From: Candidatus Tiamatella sp.
GTDB lineage: Archaea > Thermoproteota > Thermoprotei_A > Sulfolobales > Acidilobaceae
DNA length: 38,066 nucleotides
Direction of reading: 5' to 3'
NCBI GenBank assembly: GCA_015522645.1
Contig: WALV01000035.1
Span: 1 to 38,066, forward strand
Positions within the stretch are counted from its first letter, which is position 1. Every line of letters begins with the position of its first letter. The translations under genes and the position numbers were made by a program. Of the stretch, positions 17,453-26,467 are shown in pieces. The notes beneath the pieces were generated by a model. It ran no database searches and was not told where the DNA came from. It saw only the letters and a program-made list of their open reading frames with translations.

Positions 17453-18460
17453 TTGACAAGGACAGCAATCACAGTAATACTGCTAGCAATAATGATCATC
17501 ACACCTGCAACAATAACAGCATACTCCGGTGAACCAATAACCTACACAGTACTATTCGCCTTCATTCCAGAAAACCATTCCTCAACTGGATTCACTTTAG
17601 GGGCGCCTAGATGGATTCCAGGTAACGGACAGGACGCTGAAGTAATACAGGAATTAGAAACACCCTACTATAATTGTGAAATGATTAAATGGATCATAAA
17701 AGACCCTATCGACAGATACGAGAACGCGCCCCTGTCGACTCAACCGACAAGCCTATACAATTACACGAACCCTGTAGTTAAGGAATTCATACGGGAAAAC
17801 ATATCAAAGCTAAACCTAAGCAACTTGTCAAACGAAGAGAAAATAAACCGTATCGCAGATTACATTTATAAGCACTTCAAATACCAAGTCGGGCAATACC
17901 CGCATTATCCATGGGAAACAATAAGACTTGGACACGGGGACTGCGATGATCTTGCAATACTCGTAGTGACAATAGCAAGAGCTTACCACGTACCATCCGC
18001 TATGGCTGTAGGGCTCTTAGTCATACCAGGATTTAAATCAAGCATCGTGGCAGGTGGTATAAATTATACTATAAAAGGTCTCGCTGGGCATGCATGGATA
18101 GTCTACAGGGACGATAAAGGTAAACCTGTGGTAATGGACAGACTGGTCCCTCTAGATGCGGTACCTAACAAGCGGAGGATATTACTCGACTTCCCCGTTA
18201 ACGGATACCAATACGTAAACCAGACTAGAAGCGAGGTAATGCAACAGAAAGGCAAAGCATACATAATGCTATACAATGGGAAAACATGTCCTTCACCACT
18301 GGAACTCGATAAACTAGGACAAACTACTAGTGGACTTACACCTAAGGTCGATATGAGTGATAAGCAGGCGGTTATAGCCCTAGGCATACTAGGATGGATA
18401 CTCGTTGCACTAGTCTACTATATATACACTAGCATAACAAGACCGGCCTGGGGCAGGTGA
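17453..18460 (+). CDS. Secreted transglutaminase-like (cysteine peptidase fold) protein
   Basis: A 335-residue protein with an N-terminal signal or anchor (about 4-22), many N-glycosylation sequons, a transglutaminase-like domain (about 125-235) and a C-terminal membrane segment (about 307-328) followed by a short positive tail. The catalytic triad is visible: Cys164 in GHGDCDD, His213 in GHAW and Asp229 in VVMD. It likely acts outside the cell as a peptidase or amidase tethered to the membrane. The start is TTG at 17453. Its stop TGA at 18458-18460 lies within the Shine-Dalgarno of the RNase Z gene, so the two are probably translationally coupled. Confidence 0.85.
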   Translation: MTRTAITVILLAIMIITPATITAYSGEPITYTVLFAFIPENHSSTGFTLGAPRWIPGNGQDAEVIQELETPYYNCEMIKWIIKDPIDRYENAPLSTQPTSLYNYTNPVVKEFIRENISKLNLSNLSNEEKINRIADYIYKHFKYQVGQYPHYPWETIRLGHGDCDDLAILVVTIARAYHVPSAMAVGLLVIPGFKSSIVAGGINYTIKGLAGHAWIVYRDDKGKPVVMDRLVPLDAVPNKRRILLDFPVNGYQYVNQTRSEVMQQKGKAYIMLYNGKTCPSPLELDKLGQTTSGLTPKVDMSDKQAVIALGILGWILVALVYYIYTSITRPAWGR

Positions 18461-18466
18461 TGAACT

Positions 18467-19375
18467 ATACATATTTTCAAAGCAACACTACTAGGTACCA
18501 GCGCTGCCATCCCTATCACGGATCACATGCTCCCAGCTCTACACGTCAAGGCAATAACGGGTGAGAGCGTATTAATAGACGCTGGAGAAGGAACACAACT
18601 CCAGCTGAACAGAGCTGGTATAAGTATAAACAAGATAAACATCATACTCATCACGCATATGCATGGGGATCATATTTTCGGATTACCAGGACTCCTGGAA
18701 AACATGAGTCTAACAGGTAGAACCCGAGAACTCCTCATAATAGGCCCACACGGCATAGGAGGCTATATCACTGAATCATTCAAGGCAACATATTTCTACC
18801 CGAGATACAGCCTCTACTACGCAGAAATAAATGGATGGGGATCCTATAAATACGGCTCCATAACCATAGAATGGTTCCCAGTATGCCATACAATAGAAAC
18901 ATACGGCTACAGGGTAACCTACTATAAGAGGCCAAGGCTAAGCAAGGAAAAACTAGAGCAGACAGGCCTCCTCAATAATCCGCTCACGAGCAAACTACTC
19001 GATAAAGGCGAAGTCAAAGTAGATAATAGAACAATAAAAATCGAAGATGTTATTGCTGAACCCGCAAGAAAATACTGCATAGCATACACGGGGGACACCG
19101 CACCATGTGCCCGTATAATAGAGGAAGTTAAAGGATGCGATATACTGTTTCACGAGGCTACTTTCGCGTCAGACCACCGCTATGAAGCCTGGGAATATGG
19201 TCACAGCACAGCTATGGATGCAGCATTAGTAGCGAGAGAAGCGGGGGTAGGCAGACTAGTCCTTTACCATTATAGCACGAGATACAGGGAGGATTACAGT
19301 ATACTTGAAAAAGAAGCACTCAGTATATTCCCATATACAGATCTAGGTGTAGACTTGAAGGAATACTTCGTTTGA
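18467..19375 (+). CDS. rnz: Ribonuclease Z (tRNA 3' processing), apparent ATA start
   Basis: A metallo-beta-lactamase-fold tRNA 3' endonuclease. The zinc motif is THMHGDHIFG, and the later metal ligands are in YTGDTAPC and EYGHSTAMD. The first ATG in frame (18527) would drop the conserved first strand. The upstream sequence in frame codes IHIFKATLLGTSAAIP, the typical RNase Z N-terminus, and an in-frame TGA at 18461 limits the start to 18464 or later. No ATG, GTG or TTG occurs before 18527. An ATA at 18467 sits 5 bases after GGTGAT (18456-18461), so it is taken as the start, giving 302 residues. The conservative start is 18527 (282 residues). Confidence 0.8.
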   Translation: MHIFKATLLGTSAAIPITDHMLPALHVKAITGESVLIDAGEGTQLQLNRAGISINKINIILITHMHGDHIFGLPGLLENMSLTGRTRELLIIGPHGIGGYITESFKATYFYPRYSLYYAEINGWGSYKYGSITIEWFPVCHTIETYGYRVTYYKRPRLSKEKLEQTGLLNNPLTSKLLDKGEVKVDNRTIKIEDVIAEPARKYCIAYTGDTAPCARIIEEVKGCDILFHEATFASDHRYEAWEYGHSTAMDAALVAREAGVGRLVLYHYSTRYREDYSILEKEALSIFPYTDLGVDLKEYFV

Positions 19376-22796: not shown

Positions 22797-24134
22797 TTGG
22801 TTTTAGACGGCTTGAAGAACGCGGTCTCCAAATTCATTAAAGGGACCGGTAGTTATGAGAAAAATGTTAACGAGTTCATCAAGGAGATGCAGAGAGAGCT
22901 CATAAAATCAGATGTGAACATTAAGCTTGTCCTTGAGCTTTCCAAGAAGATTAAGGAGAGGGCTTTGAAGGAGGCTCCCCCGCCTGGGGCCAGTAGGAGG
23001 GACTGGTTTATTAAGATAGTCTACGAGGAATTAGCTGGATTCTTCGGTGGGGATGCTGAACCACATGTTAAGCCTTCAAGAACACCTTGGGTCATAATGC
23101 TTATAGGTGTACAGGGGTCTGGTAAGACTACGACTGCCGGGAAGCTTGCATACTATTACAGGCATCGTGGGTACAAGGTAGGATTAGTCGCGGCGGACAC
23201 TCATAGGCCTGGTGCTTATGATCAGCTTAAACAGCTTGCAGAGCAGGTGGGTGCACTGTTCTATGGCGAGCCCGGGGAGAAGGATGCTGTTGGTATAGCT
23301 AAGAGGGGTGTCGGGTTTCTCAGGGAGAAGAGTGCTGATATAATTATTGTTGACACTGCAGGTAGGCACGGTTATGGTGATGAGCAGGGACTGTTAGATG
23401 AGATGGAAATGATATCAAGGCAAATAAACCCGGATGAAGTTATCCTCGTAATAGATGCAGCCATAGGCCAGAAAGCATTTGACCTAGCCAGGAGATTCCA
23501 TGAGAGAACACCCGTAGGCTCAATAATAGTTACCAAACTAGATGGCACAGCGAGAGGAGGAGGCGCCCTCTCAGCGGTAGCAGCAACTGGAGCCGGAATC
23601 AAGTTCATAGGAACGGGGGAGAAAGTCGGTGAAATAGAGCCCTTTAGACCAAAACGATTCGTAGGACGCATACTGGGCATGGGGGACATAGAGTCTCTCT
23701 TAGAGAAACTTCAGGCACTAGAGGAGGCTGAGGAGCTAGAAAAGCGAACCCAGGAGATGATGGAAGGCAAGATCAATATGAGGCTAATCTACCACCAGCT
23801 CAAGGGTATGAGGAAAATGGGACCCCTAAGCAAAGTCCTCCAAATGCTCCCTGGATTAGGGCTATTTAAACTGGATTCTATCGACACTAAATTGGGGGAG
23901 GAGAAGATAGATAAGTGGCTTGCAATAATCGAGTCAATGACGTATAGGGAGCTAGATAAACCCGAGATCATAGATAAGAGCCGGATGAGAAGGCTTGCGT
24001 TCGGGAGTGGAACAAGCTTAGAAGACGTTAAGGAATTACTCGTATATTATAACAATCTAAAGAAGATGCTGAAGCAGTTAAAGAGGAAGAAAAGACTCCT
24101 TAGGAAGCTCGGCGGAGCCGAGCTGGGAGTCTAG
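22797..24134 (+). CDS. srp54: Signal recognition particle GTPase SRP54
   Basis: A 445-residue SRP54 that binds signal sequences on nascent chains and the SRP RNA. The N domain (1-90) is followed by the GTPase G domain with GVQGSGKTT (104-112), DTHRPGA, DTAGR (186-190) and TKLDG (246-250). A Met-rich M domain (about 300-430) carries SRP RNA and signal-peptide binding, ending in a basic tail. The start is TTG at 22797, giving MVLDGLKNAVSKF, the usual N-terminus. It is followed 20 bases later by the TrmY-like gene. SRP RNA and SRP19 genes are not in the window. Confidence 0.96.
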   Translation: MVLDGLKNAVSKFIKGTGSYEKNVNEFIKEMQRELIKSDVNIKLVLELSKKIKERALKEAPPPGASRRDWFIKIVYEELAGFFGGDAEPHVKPSRTPWVIMLIGVQGSGKTTTAGKLAYYYRHRGYKVGLVAADTHRPGAYDQLKQLAEQVGALFYGEPGEKDAVGIAKRGVGFLREKSADIIIVDTAGRHGYGDEQGLLDEMEMISRQINPDEVILVIDAAIGQKAFDLARRFHERTPVGSIIVTKLDGTARGGGALSAVAATGAGIKFIGTGEKVGEIEPFRPKRFVGRILGMGDIESLLEKLQALEEAEELEKRTQEMMEGKINMRLIYHQLKGMRKMGPLSKVLQMLPGLGLFKLDSIDTKLGEEKIDKWLAIIESMTYRELDKPEIIDKSRMRRLAFGSGTSLEDVKELLVYYNNLKKMLKQLKRKKRLLRKLGGAELGV

Positions 24135-24154
24135 ACTCTTAGGAGGGAGGAGTT

Positions 24155-24604
24155 ATACCTGTACACATACTAGTCGGCCACCATAAAAAATGGATTATAA
24201 CATCATTCCTTTCCTCAGCCCTCCTAATAAGCCATGGAGTCAGGAGGGATGTGACTGCTGTATTCCAAGCGGGAGGAAAAACCATCATAGTAAAAGGGAG
24301 TAGTGTCAGGCACCTACACCCAGACCAGGATAGCGGAGAAGGATATGTAAGAGCAGTTCTAATGAGTAAAGCACGGCGGATGGGAGCGGTTGTCTGCAGG
24401 GAATACGAGGTAGAGAAGCCTTGCCTCAATGTCACCCAATTTGACGGAGAAGATATTTTCGCAATGGATCTAAGGGAATACAAGTCCTTCGTGTACGGGG
24501 GTAAAATCGAGGGCTGTACAACTGGGTTCCTAGGGGCAGACGTACCCGTTAACCTAATGCCCTCGGTAATCAACATCATGTTAGACAGGAGTAAACAGTG
24601 GTAG
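24155..24604 (+). CDS. TrmY-like SPOUT RNA methyltransferase, apparent ATA start
   Basis: A SPOUT-fold protein similar to TrmY (DUF358), which N1-methylates pseudouridine 54 of tRNA. Family motifs are SHGVRRDV and VRHLHPDQDS, with a knot-like C-terminus FLGADVPVNLMP. The first standard start, GTG at 24251, falls inside SHGVRRDV. The same frame is open upstream to a TAG at 24140 and codes VHILVGHHKKW and SALLIS, clearly family sequence. No ATG, GTG or TTG is available there in any frame, but an ATA at 24155 follows AGGAGGGAGG (24141-24150) by 4 bases. With that start the protein is 149 residues, shorter than typical TrmY (about 195). Confidence 0.72.
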   Translation: MPVHILVGHHKKWIITSFLSSALLISHGVRRDVTAVFQAGGKTIIVKGSSVRHLHPDQDSGEGYVRAVLMSKARRMGAVVCREYEVEKPCLNVTQFDGEDIFAMDLREYKSFVYGGKIEGCTTGFLGADVPVNLMPSVINIMLDRSKQW

Positions 24605-24610
24605 ATTAAC

Positions 24611-26467
24611 GTGTCAGGTAAATTCCCATACAAGGAATTCCGTAAAGGTCAGGAGGAGGTCGCTGAGAATGTCAGGGAAACAGTTGAGAATGGTGAGGTT
24701 CTCCTACTAGAAGCACCGACAGGATTCGGTAAGACGGCGGCTGTAATAGAGGGACTAGAGAGAGGCGGGGCTGAGAAGGTACTATGGGTAGTGAGAACTA
24801 TTAACCAGATAGACCCTGTATTACGCGAGTTACGTAGATTCAGGGTATCATACACATATGTATTCAGTGCGAGAAGAAGTTGCCCACTGGTGGAAGGCTC
24901 GGACATACCTGTAGAGGATTTCTGGATGAACTGTAGGCATCTCAGGAGCCAAGCAAGATGCAGTTTCTACTTCAATACCATGGAAGCTAGCATTGAATAC
25001 CTTCAATCGCTACTAGATAATTACAAGGGCTATACTACTACTGAGACAGCATCCCTCCTAGCTAAGATGGACGGGTTATGCCCGTTCTTTTCCCTTCTAC
25101 GACTGGCGGGCCATTCGAAATATGTGGTTGCCACTTATCCTTATCTATTCAAGTGGGATCTATTCACACACGTCCTAGATATAGGAGATTACAGTGACCT
25201 AGCTATCGTTGTAGACGAGGTACATAGTATCCTAAGCATCCACAGTATATACGAGTACAAGATAACGGTTGACGTGGTCGAGAGAAGCCTTGATGAAGCA
25301 AGGACGTATACTGATGACGTGTCGCTTGTTGAGAGGCTAGAATCCTTTCATAGGATGCTACAGCAGAAAGCTTCTGGAATAACACCTGGAATATACCCAA
25401 TGGATAAGGCGCAGATTATTGAGATACTAGGTGACCCTGAGCAACTAGCATATACAGCTGAAGCTGTTAGAGAAGTAATATTGGAGGAGAGGTATCGGGC
25501 AGCTGGGTTGCAGGGAGTTATGAAAATAGTCTCGGGATTGACGAAGCTTGCTACTTGGCTTGAGACGCTTTCTATGGAGTCAAGCAAACTCTACATTGAA
25601 TGGGACGGTGAGGATCCACCTGGGTTTGTTGCAACACCCATGGATCCAGCCGAGATTGCCTCCCCTATAATCCAAGGGGCGCAATCAGCAATACTTATGA
25701 GTGGTACTCTTCCACCGGGGAACATGGTTAGGGATTTCCTTGGAGTTGAAAGAAGTGCTACGGTAGTCGATGTAGACGCTATGTATGGGCCTGTTATGCC
25801 TCCGGAGAACAGGTATACTATACTAGGTATAGACGTCTCAACGAGATATAGCGAGAGAGGCCCTTTTACATACAAAGTATACGCCGGCTATATAACCAGC
25901 ATAATAACAGGTTTACCAGGCGCTAAACTAGTAGTATACCCTAGCTACGATGTCCTCTACAGTATAATAGAGAGAATCGACCGGGGAGATAACGATATTG
26001 TCGAGACGAAGAAAACAAGCATAGCAGAAGTAGTCAGGAAACTGGAGGACAGGAAGGACATAGTGATACATAGTGTAGCAGGAGGGAAACTAGTCGAGGG
26101 AGTTGAGTACGTAGACGAGAACGGTAGGAGCATACTGAAAACCGTGGTAATCGTCGGAGTCCCATATCCCCAGCCGACTCCATACACCCAAGACTATATT
26201 GATGCACTAGCAAAGAGGATAGGGCCTCGGAAAGCGAGAGAATACGCGTACCATATCAATGCCTCCATAAAGGTCAGGCAAGCTCTGGGTAGGGCAATAA
26301 GAAGCAGGGAAGACAAGGCAGTATACTTTCTGCTAGACCATAGATATAACAATAGGAAGCTACGGAGCTTCCTCAAAACAAGGATAGACGAAATGGTTAC
26401 ATACAACAAAATAACATTTCCAGTGATAATAGAGAAGGCTAGGAAGCACATTGAGACAGAGGCTTAA
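24611..26467 (+). CDS. XPD/Rad3-type iron-sulfur DNA helicase
   Basis: A 618-residue superfamily 2 helicase of the XPD group, moving 5' to 3' on DNA in repair or transcription-linked processes. Motifs are Walker A APTGFGKT (35-42), Walker B DEVH (202-205, where DEAH is usual), a SGTLPP segment in motif III/IV position and the arginine-rich motif VI QALGRAIRS. Four cysteines (91, 108, 117, 157) are spaced as the XPD 4Fe-4S cluster ligands. The start is GTG at 24611, 6 bases after the TrmY-like stop, so the genes are co-transcribed. The next gene begins 3 bases after its stop. Confidence 0.92.
   Translation: MSGKFPYKEFRKGQEEVAENVRETVENGEVLLLEAPTGFGKTAAVIEGLERGGAEKVLWVVRTINQIDPVLRELRRFRVSYTYVFSARRSCPLVEGSDIPVEDFWMNCRHLRSQARCSFYFNTMEASIEYLQSLLDNYKGYTTTETASLLAKMDGLCPFFSLLRLAGHSKYVVATYPYLFKWDLFTHVLDIGDYSDLAIVVDEVHSILSIHSIYEYKITVDVVERSLDEARTYTDDVSLVERLESFHRMLQQKASGITPGIYPMDKAQIIEILGDPEQLAYTAEAVREVILEERYRAAGLQGVMKIVSGLTKLATWLETLSMESSKLYIEWDGEDPPGFVATPMDPAEIASPIIQGAQSAILMSGTLPPGNMVRDFLGVERSATVVDVDAMYGPVMPPENRYTILGIDVSTRYSERGPFTYKVYAGYITSIITGLPGAKLVVYPSYDVLYSIIERIDRGDNDIVETKKTSIAEVVRKLEDRKDIVIHSVAGGKLVEGVEYVDENGRSILKTVVIVGVPYPQPTPYTQDYIDALAKRIGPRKAREYAYHINASIKVRQALGRAIRSREDKAVYFLLDHRYNNRKLRSFLKTRIDEMVTYNKITFPVIIEKARKHIETEA

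Follow-up and report, generated by a model that had tools for sequence, protein, structure and literature searches.

A TrmY-like gene of Candidatus Tiamatella with a probable AUA start, and candidate AUA or GUA starts in other genes of the genus

Where does translation begin in a gene whose conserved N-terminal sequence lies ahead of every standard start codon in its frame? Gene finders accept only ATG, GTG and TTG, so that genes starting at AUA or GUA would be truncated or lost. This question is raised by a TrmY-like gene in the window, the whole 38,066-nucleotide stretch of DNA analyzed here, which is contig C35 of an archaeal MAG of Candidatus Tiamatella (G000; 1.54 Mb, 98% complete, 71 contigs). 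The TrmY-like frame is open on the plus strand from 24143 to its stop at 24602-24604, and 20 nt separate the stop of the preceding SRP54 gene (24132-24134) from an ATA at 24155 (Table 1). The initial annotation had described TrmY-like family sequence upstream of the first GTG and an ATA four bases after a strong Shine-Dalgarno (SD) sequence. Both observations were borne out: the frame contains no ATG, GTG or TTG ahead of GTG 24251, which encodes the V of RRDV directly after SHGVRRD, and ATA 24155 lies four bases after AGGAGGGAGG. The further statement that no frame offers ATG, GTG or TTG from 24143 onward is true before 24190 and overstated beyond, as out-of-frame ATGs occur at 24190, 24234 and 24249. 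Because the sequence from the upstream stop to 24189 is free of start codons in all frames, the conclusion on the start of the gene holds despite this overstated detail.

Table 1. Features of the window around the TrmY-like and RNase Z genes
Feature	Position	Strand	Evidence
SRP54 gene	22797..24134	+	ORF; matches to Pfam SRP54, SRP_SPB and SRP54_N
In-frame TAG closing the TrmY frame upstream	24140..24142	+	Sequence
Double SD motif AGGAGGGAGG, with GGAGG at 24142-24146 and 24146-24150	24141..24150	+	Sequence; identical in G045
Proposed ATA start codon of the TrmY-like gene	24155..24157	+	SD spacing of 8 and 4 nt; kept in G045
TrmY-like gene for a putative SPOUT methyltransferase (149 residues and stop)	24155..24604	+	Matches to PF04013, NF002560 and the AF_1056 profile
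First in-frame canonical codon GTG, residue 33, rejected as start	24251..24253	+	Invariant residues ahead of it
XPD/Rad3-type helicase, next gene downstream	24611..26467	+	TIGR00604, E=6.6e-48
SD of RNase Z, AGGTGA, which shares bases with the TGA of the upstream gene	18455..18460	+	Sequence
Proposed ATA start codon of RNase Z	18467..18469	+	6-7 nt from SD; aligns with TTG of L090
RNase Z, metallo-beta-lactamase fold	18467..19375	+	PF12706, E=2.4e-23; PF13691 (tRNase Z), E=7e-4

The product is only a short, divergent relative of TrmY (COG1901), the tRNA (pseudouridine-54 N1)-methyltransferase. It shares with TrmY the SHG-[IV]-RRD region and the invariant LL-S-R and R-L-PD motifs, but is only 149 residues long, against about 200 for TrmY, and its scores fall below the curated cut-offs of both PF04013 (E=3.3e-5, 24.1 bits vs 25.5) and NF002560 (E=6e-8, 32.3 bits vs 183). 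Its family profile matched AF_1056 (2qmm) with E=1.4e-7, the SHG-RRD region included. For the SPOUT trefoil-knot fold, an AlphaFold model computed from the single sequence with no alignment had a mean pLDDT of 31.

We compared G000 with two congeners, the sister species G045 and a third species, G046 (270 contigs); all three are metagenome assemblies. Of the 36 codons that precede the GTG position, 30 encode the same residue in G000 and the sister species, and the substitutions at codon positions 1/2/3 (4/2/8) follow a coding pattern. When 12 family members were aligned, all shared L23, L24, S26 and R30, and almost all shared H4, F18 and G28 (residues are numbered from ATA 24155). All of these precede residue 33, and a protein starting at GTG 24251 would lose them. 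A standard start was present at or before the conserved N-terminus in 25 of 30 TrmY family loci, while none of the 30 began at the GTG position. The remaining five had no standard start, namely those of G000 and G046 (L004) and three from other genera (L011, L016 and L017).

The spacing between SD five-mers and the first canonical starts in G000 peaks at 6-8 nt (range 4-11), a peak that internal codons lack, and the distances of ATA 24155 from the two GGAGG motifs, 8 and 4 nt, fall inside this range. The segment GAGGGAGGAGTTATACCT is unchanged base for base in the sister species, while the codons downstream of it vary. As the sister species keeps SD, ATA and coding sequence, a sequencing error is unlikely. 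The sister gene also has an in-frame GTG just ahead of the SD, which is a possible start there. In the third species the GGAGGGAGG part of the SD is present, and the start slot is occupied by GTT, or by GTC two codons later. Together, the conservation in the sister species, the SD spacing, the codon-position substitutions and the starts of the homologues support the proposal of the initial annotation, and the most likely start judged from the sequence comparison is AUA 24155; the exact start could also be GTT 24152 or GTA 24161 near the SD. In the three loci from other genera the candidate near-cognate start adjoins the SRP54 stop and is ATT in L016 (G041) and L017 (G043) and ACG in L011 (G033).

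RNase Z had been named as a second gene with ATA behind an SD, and this, too, agreed with our comparison. Its frame spans 18464-19372, with the first in-frame ATG at 18527. ATA 18467 aligns with the TTG start of an Aeropyrum-like homologue (L090). The sister species likewise has no canonical start until codon 21; there, an ATT aligns with ATA 18467, and an ATA is found one codon earlier. Out of frame, an ATG at 18460 overlaps the stop of the preceding gene. This wrong-frame ATG over the upstream stop (18457-18463; GTG in the sister species) belongs to the SD GGTGA.

To see how often this arrangement recurs, we scanned for genes with conserved coding sequence before their standard starts, sampling 804 kb of G000 (about half) against about 1.0 Mb of G045 (about two thirds). 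The sister copies of TrmY and RNase Z entered the sample on account of the window, in which both genes had been noticed. Among 338 evaluable ortholog pairs, only four genes showed conserved residues, with substitutions biased to the third position, before the first canonical codon of the G000 copy. Each of the four carries an ATA at 6-8 nt from an SD: the TrmY-like gene, RNase Z, a gene for a LUD/4Fe-4S (ferredoxin) protein, and a DUF359 gene. Substitutions at codon positions 1/2/3 were 2/1/11 in RNase Z, 8/8/26 in LUD and 13/10/20 in DUF359. The ATA is kept in the sister species in TrmY, LUD and DUF359. The LUD gene reads GAGAGGTGA NNN NNN ATA in both of these genomes and GGTGA NNN NNN TTG in G040 and G024, so that ATA occupies the slot of a TTG start. 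The DUF359 gene reads GGTGG(C/T)ATTAAA ATA in G000 and the sister species and has an ATG two codons later in the third species.

Two more cases were found from the side of the sister species. A NusA-type KH protein whose N-terminus carries a Cys pair is encoded by a gene that reads GAGGTGGTGA ATG ACG GTA in G000 and GAGGTGATGA ATA ACG GTA in G045, where no standard start follows until codon 37; the two proteins are 92% identical. The third species has GAGGTGGTGA GCG ACG GTT at this place (L205). In a sodium:solute symporter gene the same position is occupied by GTA in G000 and by ATA in both congeners, behind AGGTGG or GGGGTGG in the three species, and no canonical codon precedes the SSF core. 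The initial annotation had tied the ATA starts to tRNA maturation; the LUD/4Fe-4S, DUF359, KH and symporter genes leave this link unsupported. Our list of recurrences leaves aside two weaker G000 candidates, on the minus strand of L052 and at +9149 of L058, for the latter of which a homologue search gave none, as well as the CTG cases of the sister species (C10 minus strand 90575 and L200 +1356). A search of genome contigs for related loci returned a single, irrelevant match, and the exact pattern GGAGGTGATNNNATA had no match in the G000 genome.

About 4.65% of codons are ATA; at a distance of 5-9 nt behind internal SD-like motifs the share is 5.8%. A single case is thus weak, and the strength comes from recurrence: an ATA behind an SD is expected by chance in about 9% of genes, and in four of four genes with a probability of about 8e-5. 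Taken alone, SD plus ATA shows only a moderate enrichment (Fisher p = 0.003 for G000 and 0.05 for G045). For the first five genes, a standard start is missing in 3 of 84 instances outside the genus, all three of them TrmY, and in 9 of 13 inside it, a contrast that is illustrative rather than conclusive because these genes were picked for lacking starts in the genus. GTT in the TrmY-like gene and GCG in the KH gene of the third species indicate that AUA is not fixed. These GTT/GTC and GCG codons could mean that the relaxed start extends beyond AUA, or that the assembly is erroneous.

Several other explanations have to be weighed against initiation at AUA 24155. The least implausible is that another near-cognate codon by the SD (GTT 24152 or GTA 24161) initiates TrmY and the ATA is incidental. 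The slot holds GTT in the third species, the double SD makes the spacing loose, and GTA may start the symporter gene of G000; however, ATA recurs in the SD slot of six genes and replaces TTG or ATG at the same position in LUD and KH, which makes this explanation unlikely. A sequencing or assembly error that masks a standard start, such as an ATG at 24155, or an indel, would be conceivable in a MAG of 71 contigs, and a 1-nt indel would restore the out-of-frame ATG of RNase Z that overlaps the upstream stop. Yet the sister MAG shares ATA and SD in TrmY, LUD and DUF359, the frame relation of RNase Z is the same in both species, and errors would not repeatedly choose ATA or GTA in the SD slot. We consider such an error very unlikely.

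No more can be said for GTG 24251 as the true start, with the conserved upstream stretch a relic or regulatory sequence. This GTG is indeed the first canonical codon in the frame, but the substitutions upstream of it are of the coding type, four invariant residues precede it, and 25 of the 30 homologues have standard starts further upstream. Just as improbable is initiation out of frame, or in the preceding gene, followed by a ribosomal frameshift into the frame of the gene. The RNase Z overlap does contain an out-of-frame ATG (G000) or GTG (G045), and the LUD and KH genes carry GTGA or ATGA at the overlap. Against this, at the TrmY-like gene all frames lack a start from the stop up to 24189, and entry from SRP54 is barred by the in-frame TAG at 24140; the out-of-frame GTG of DUF359 leads to a stop after four codons, and the GTG in the other genes belongs to the SD GGTGA, which is present also in relatives that use TTG. 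Finally, A-to-I editing of the third mRNA base, which would turn AUA or GUA into an AUG- or GUG-like start and would suit the predominance of third-base G-to-A replacements (ATA, GTA), can be set aside, as no archaeal mRNA editing of this kind has been described to our knowledge, no common sequence context was noticed around the sites, and the ATT, GTT and GCG cases would be left unexplained.

The account that we favor, and consider likely on comparative grounds, is that an intact TrmY-like gene is read from AUA 24155 by near-cognate initiation, a device shared by at least five more genes. The strong double SD would position the 30S subunit at the AUA, and the SRP54 gene, ending 20 nt upstream, may supply ribosomes locally. 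The ordinary initiator tRNA (anticodon CAU) would then initiate at this near-cognate codon despite an A-C mismatch in its third position and place Met as the first residue, at reduced efficiency. The same device would operate in RNase Z, LUD/ferredoxin, DUF359, the KH protein and the symporter. Start codons whose third base changed to A would thus have been tolerated repeatedly, from AUG to AUA and probably from GUG to GUA, and strong SDs and, in most genes, a close or overlapping upstream stop may offset the weak AUA starts. The sequences themselves show the missing standard starts, the coding constraint before the first of them, the placement of the SDs, the conservation in congeners and the ATG/ATA alternation of the KH gene; from these we infer the use of AUA by the ribosome, Met at residue 1, the low yield, and the role of the preceding gene and its coupling.

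That the start changes are mostly third-base G to A fits near-cognate initiation by the normal initiator tRNA. An altered initiator tRNA gene was ruled out as the cause, since the G000 gene is ordinary and differs by one base from that of an A. pernix-like genome. Loss of aIF1 or KsgA was ruled out as well, because both are encoded in G000. aIF1 was reported to destabilize archaeal initiation complexes on non-AUG messages (PMC6237735), and hence AUA starts should be weak. The initiator tRNA-Met gene has an apparent T-arm intron in the sister (L259) and third (L261) species and not in G000 (L255).

A wider proposal is a relaxed initiation code throughout the genus, under which NUA codons (AUA, GUA and perhaps UUA) genuinely start the translation of a set of genes genome-wide. 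We regard it as doubtful; the source could be a modified wobble base in the initiator tRNA or a less strict aIF1. If this proposal is true, present annotations of such genomes are all missing or truncating genes. At one locus on the minus strand (L040, 2464) a TTG of G000 aligns with TTA in the sister species behind a conserved GAGGGAGG, with a GTG three codons later; this TTA is a possible third kind of NUA start. At another, an ATG of G000 (L033, minus strand 18125) aligns with CTT in the sister species (L114, 17060), where no canonical start follows for 24 codons; the latter may be a decaying gene.

Non-canonical starts have been thought of as isolated curiosities in bacteria. Genes without a standard start are already known, and what is new is the repeated occurrence of candidate AUA or GUA starts across one archaeal genus; among the open-licence papers covered by a literature search, none described AUA starts in an archaeal genome. 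The infC gene (IF3) starts at ATT in E. coli and at ATC in Streptomyces (PMC5472188). It resembles our cases as an intact, strongly conserved gene that lacks ATG, GTG and TTG and has a near-cognate start (AUU/AUC), but it is a single autoregulated bacterial gene, whereas here several unrelated archaeal genes have AUA or GUA and no autoregulatory logic is visible. Streptomyces sigR has a GTC start, and mutation showed that this codon sets a low level of translation (PMC5472188). This, too, is a rare non-canonical start that annotation misplaces, although the codon is GTC, the gene is bacterial, and the start is repressed by IF3, a fidelity role that falls to aIF1 in archaea. In a survey that covered 36 groups of closely related genomes, and which relied on annotated starts and is hence biased, 61,358 ancestral AUG starts had changed to CUG in two cases and to AUU in one, and none was reported to have changed to AUA (PMC5622118). 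Start switches between close relatives are common to that survey and our genes, and the difference is the alternation of ATG and ATA between congeners seen here. With at least six candidate AUA or GUA genes, the alternation would make the genus a natural test of how strictly archaea read the third base of the start codon.

Two further observations concern genes of the recurrence list. In two Aeropyrum-like genomes (G005 and G006; L150 and L151) the LUD/4Fe-4S gene is apparently split; the first part of the match contains two TAGs in frame. The symporter loci of the three congeners (L241, L242 and L243) share a hairpin, CTCCCAC-4 nt-GTGGGA, directly before the SD, with a folding z-score of -4.6 in the third species and of about -1.2 in the other two.
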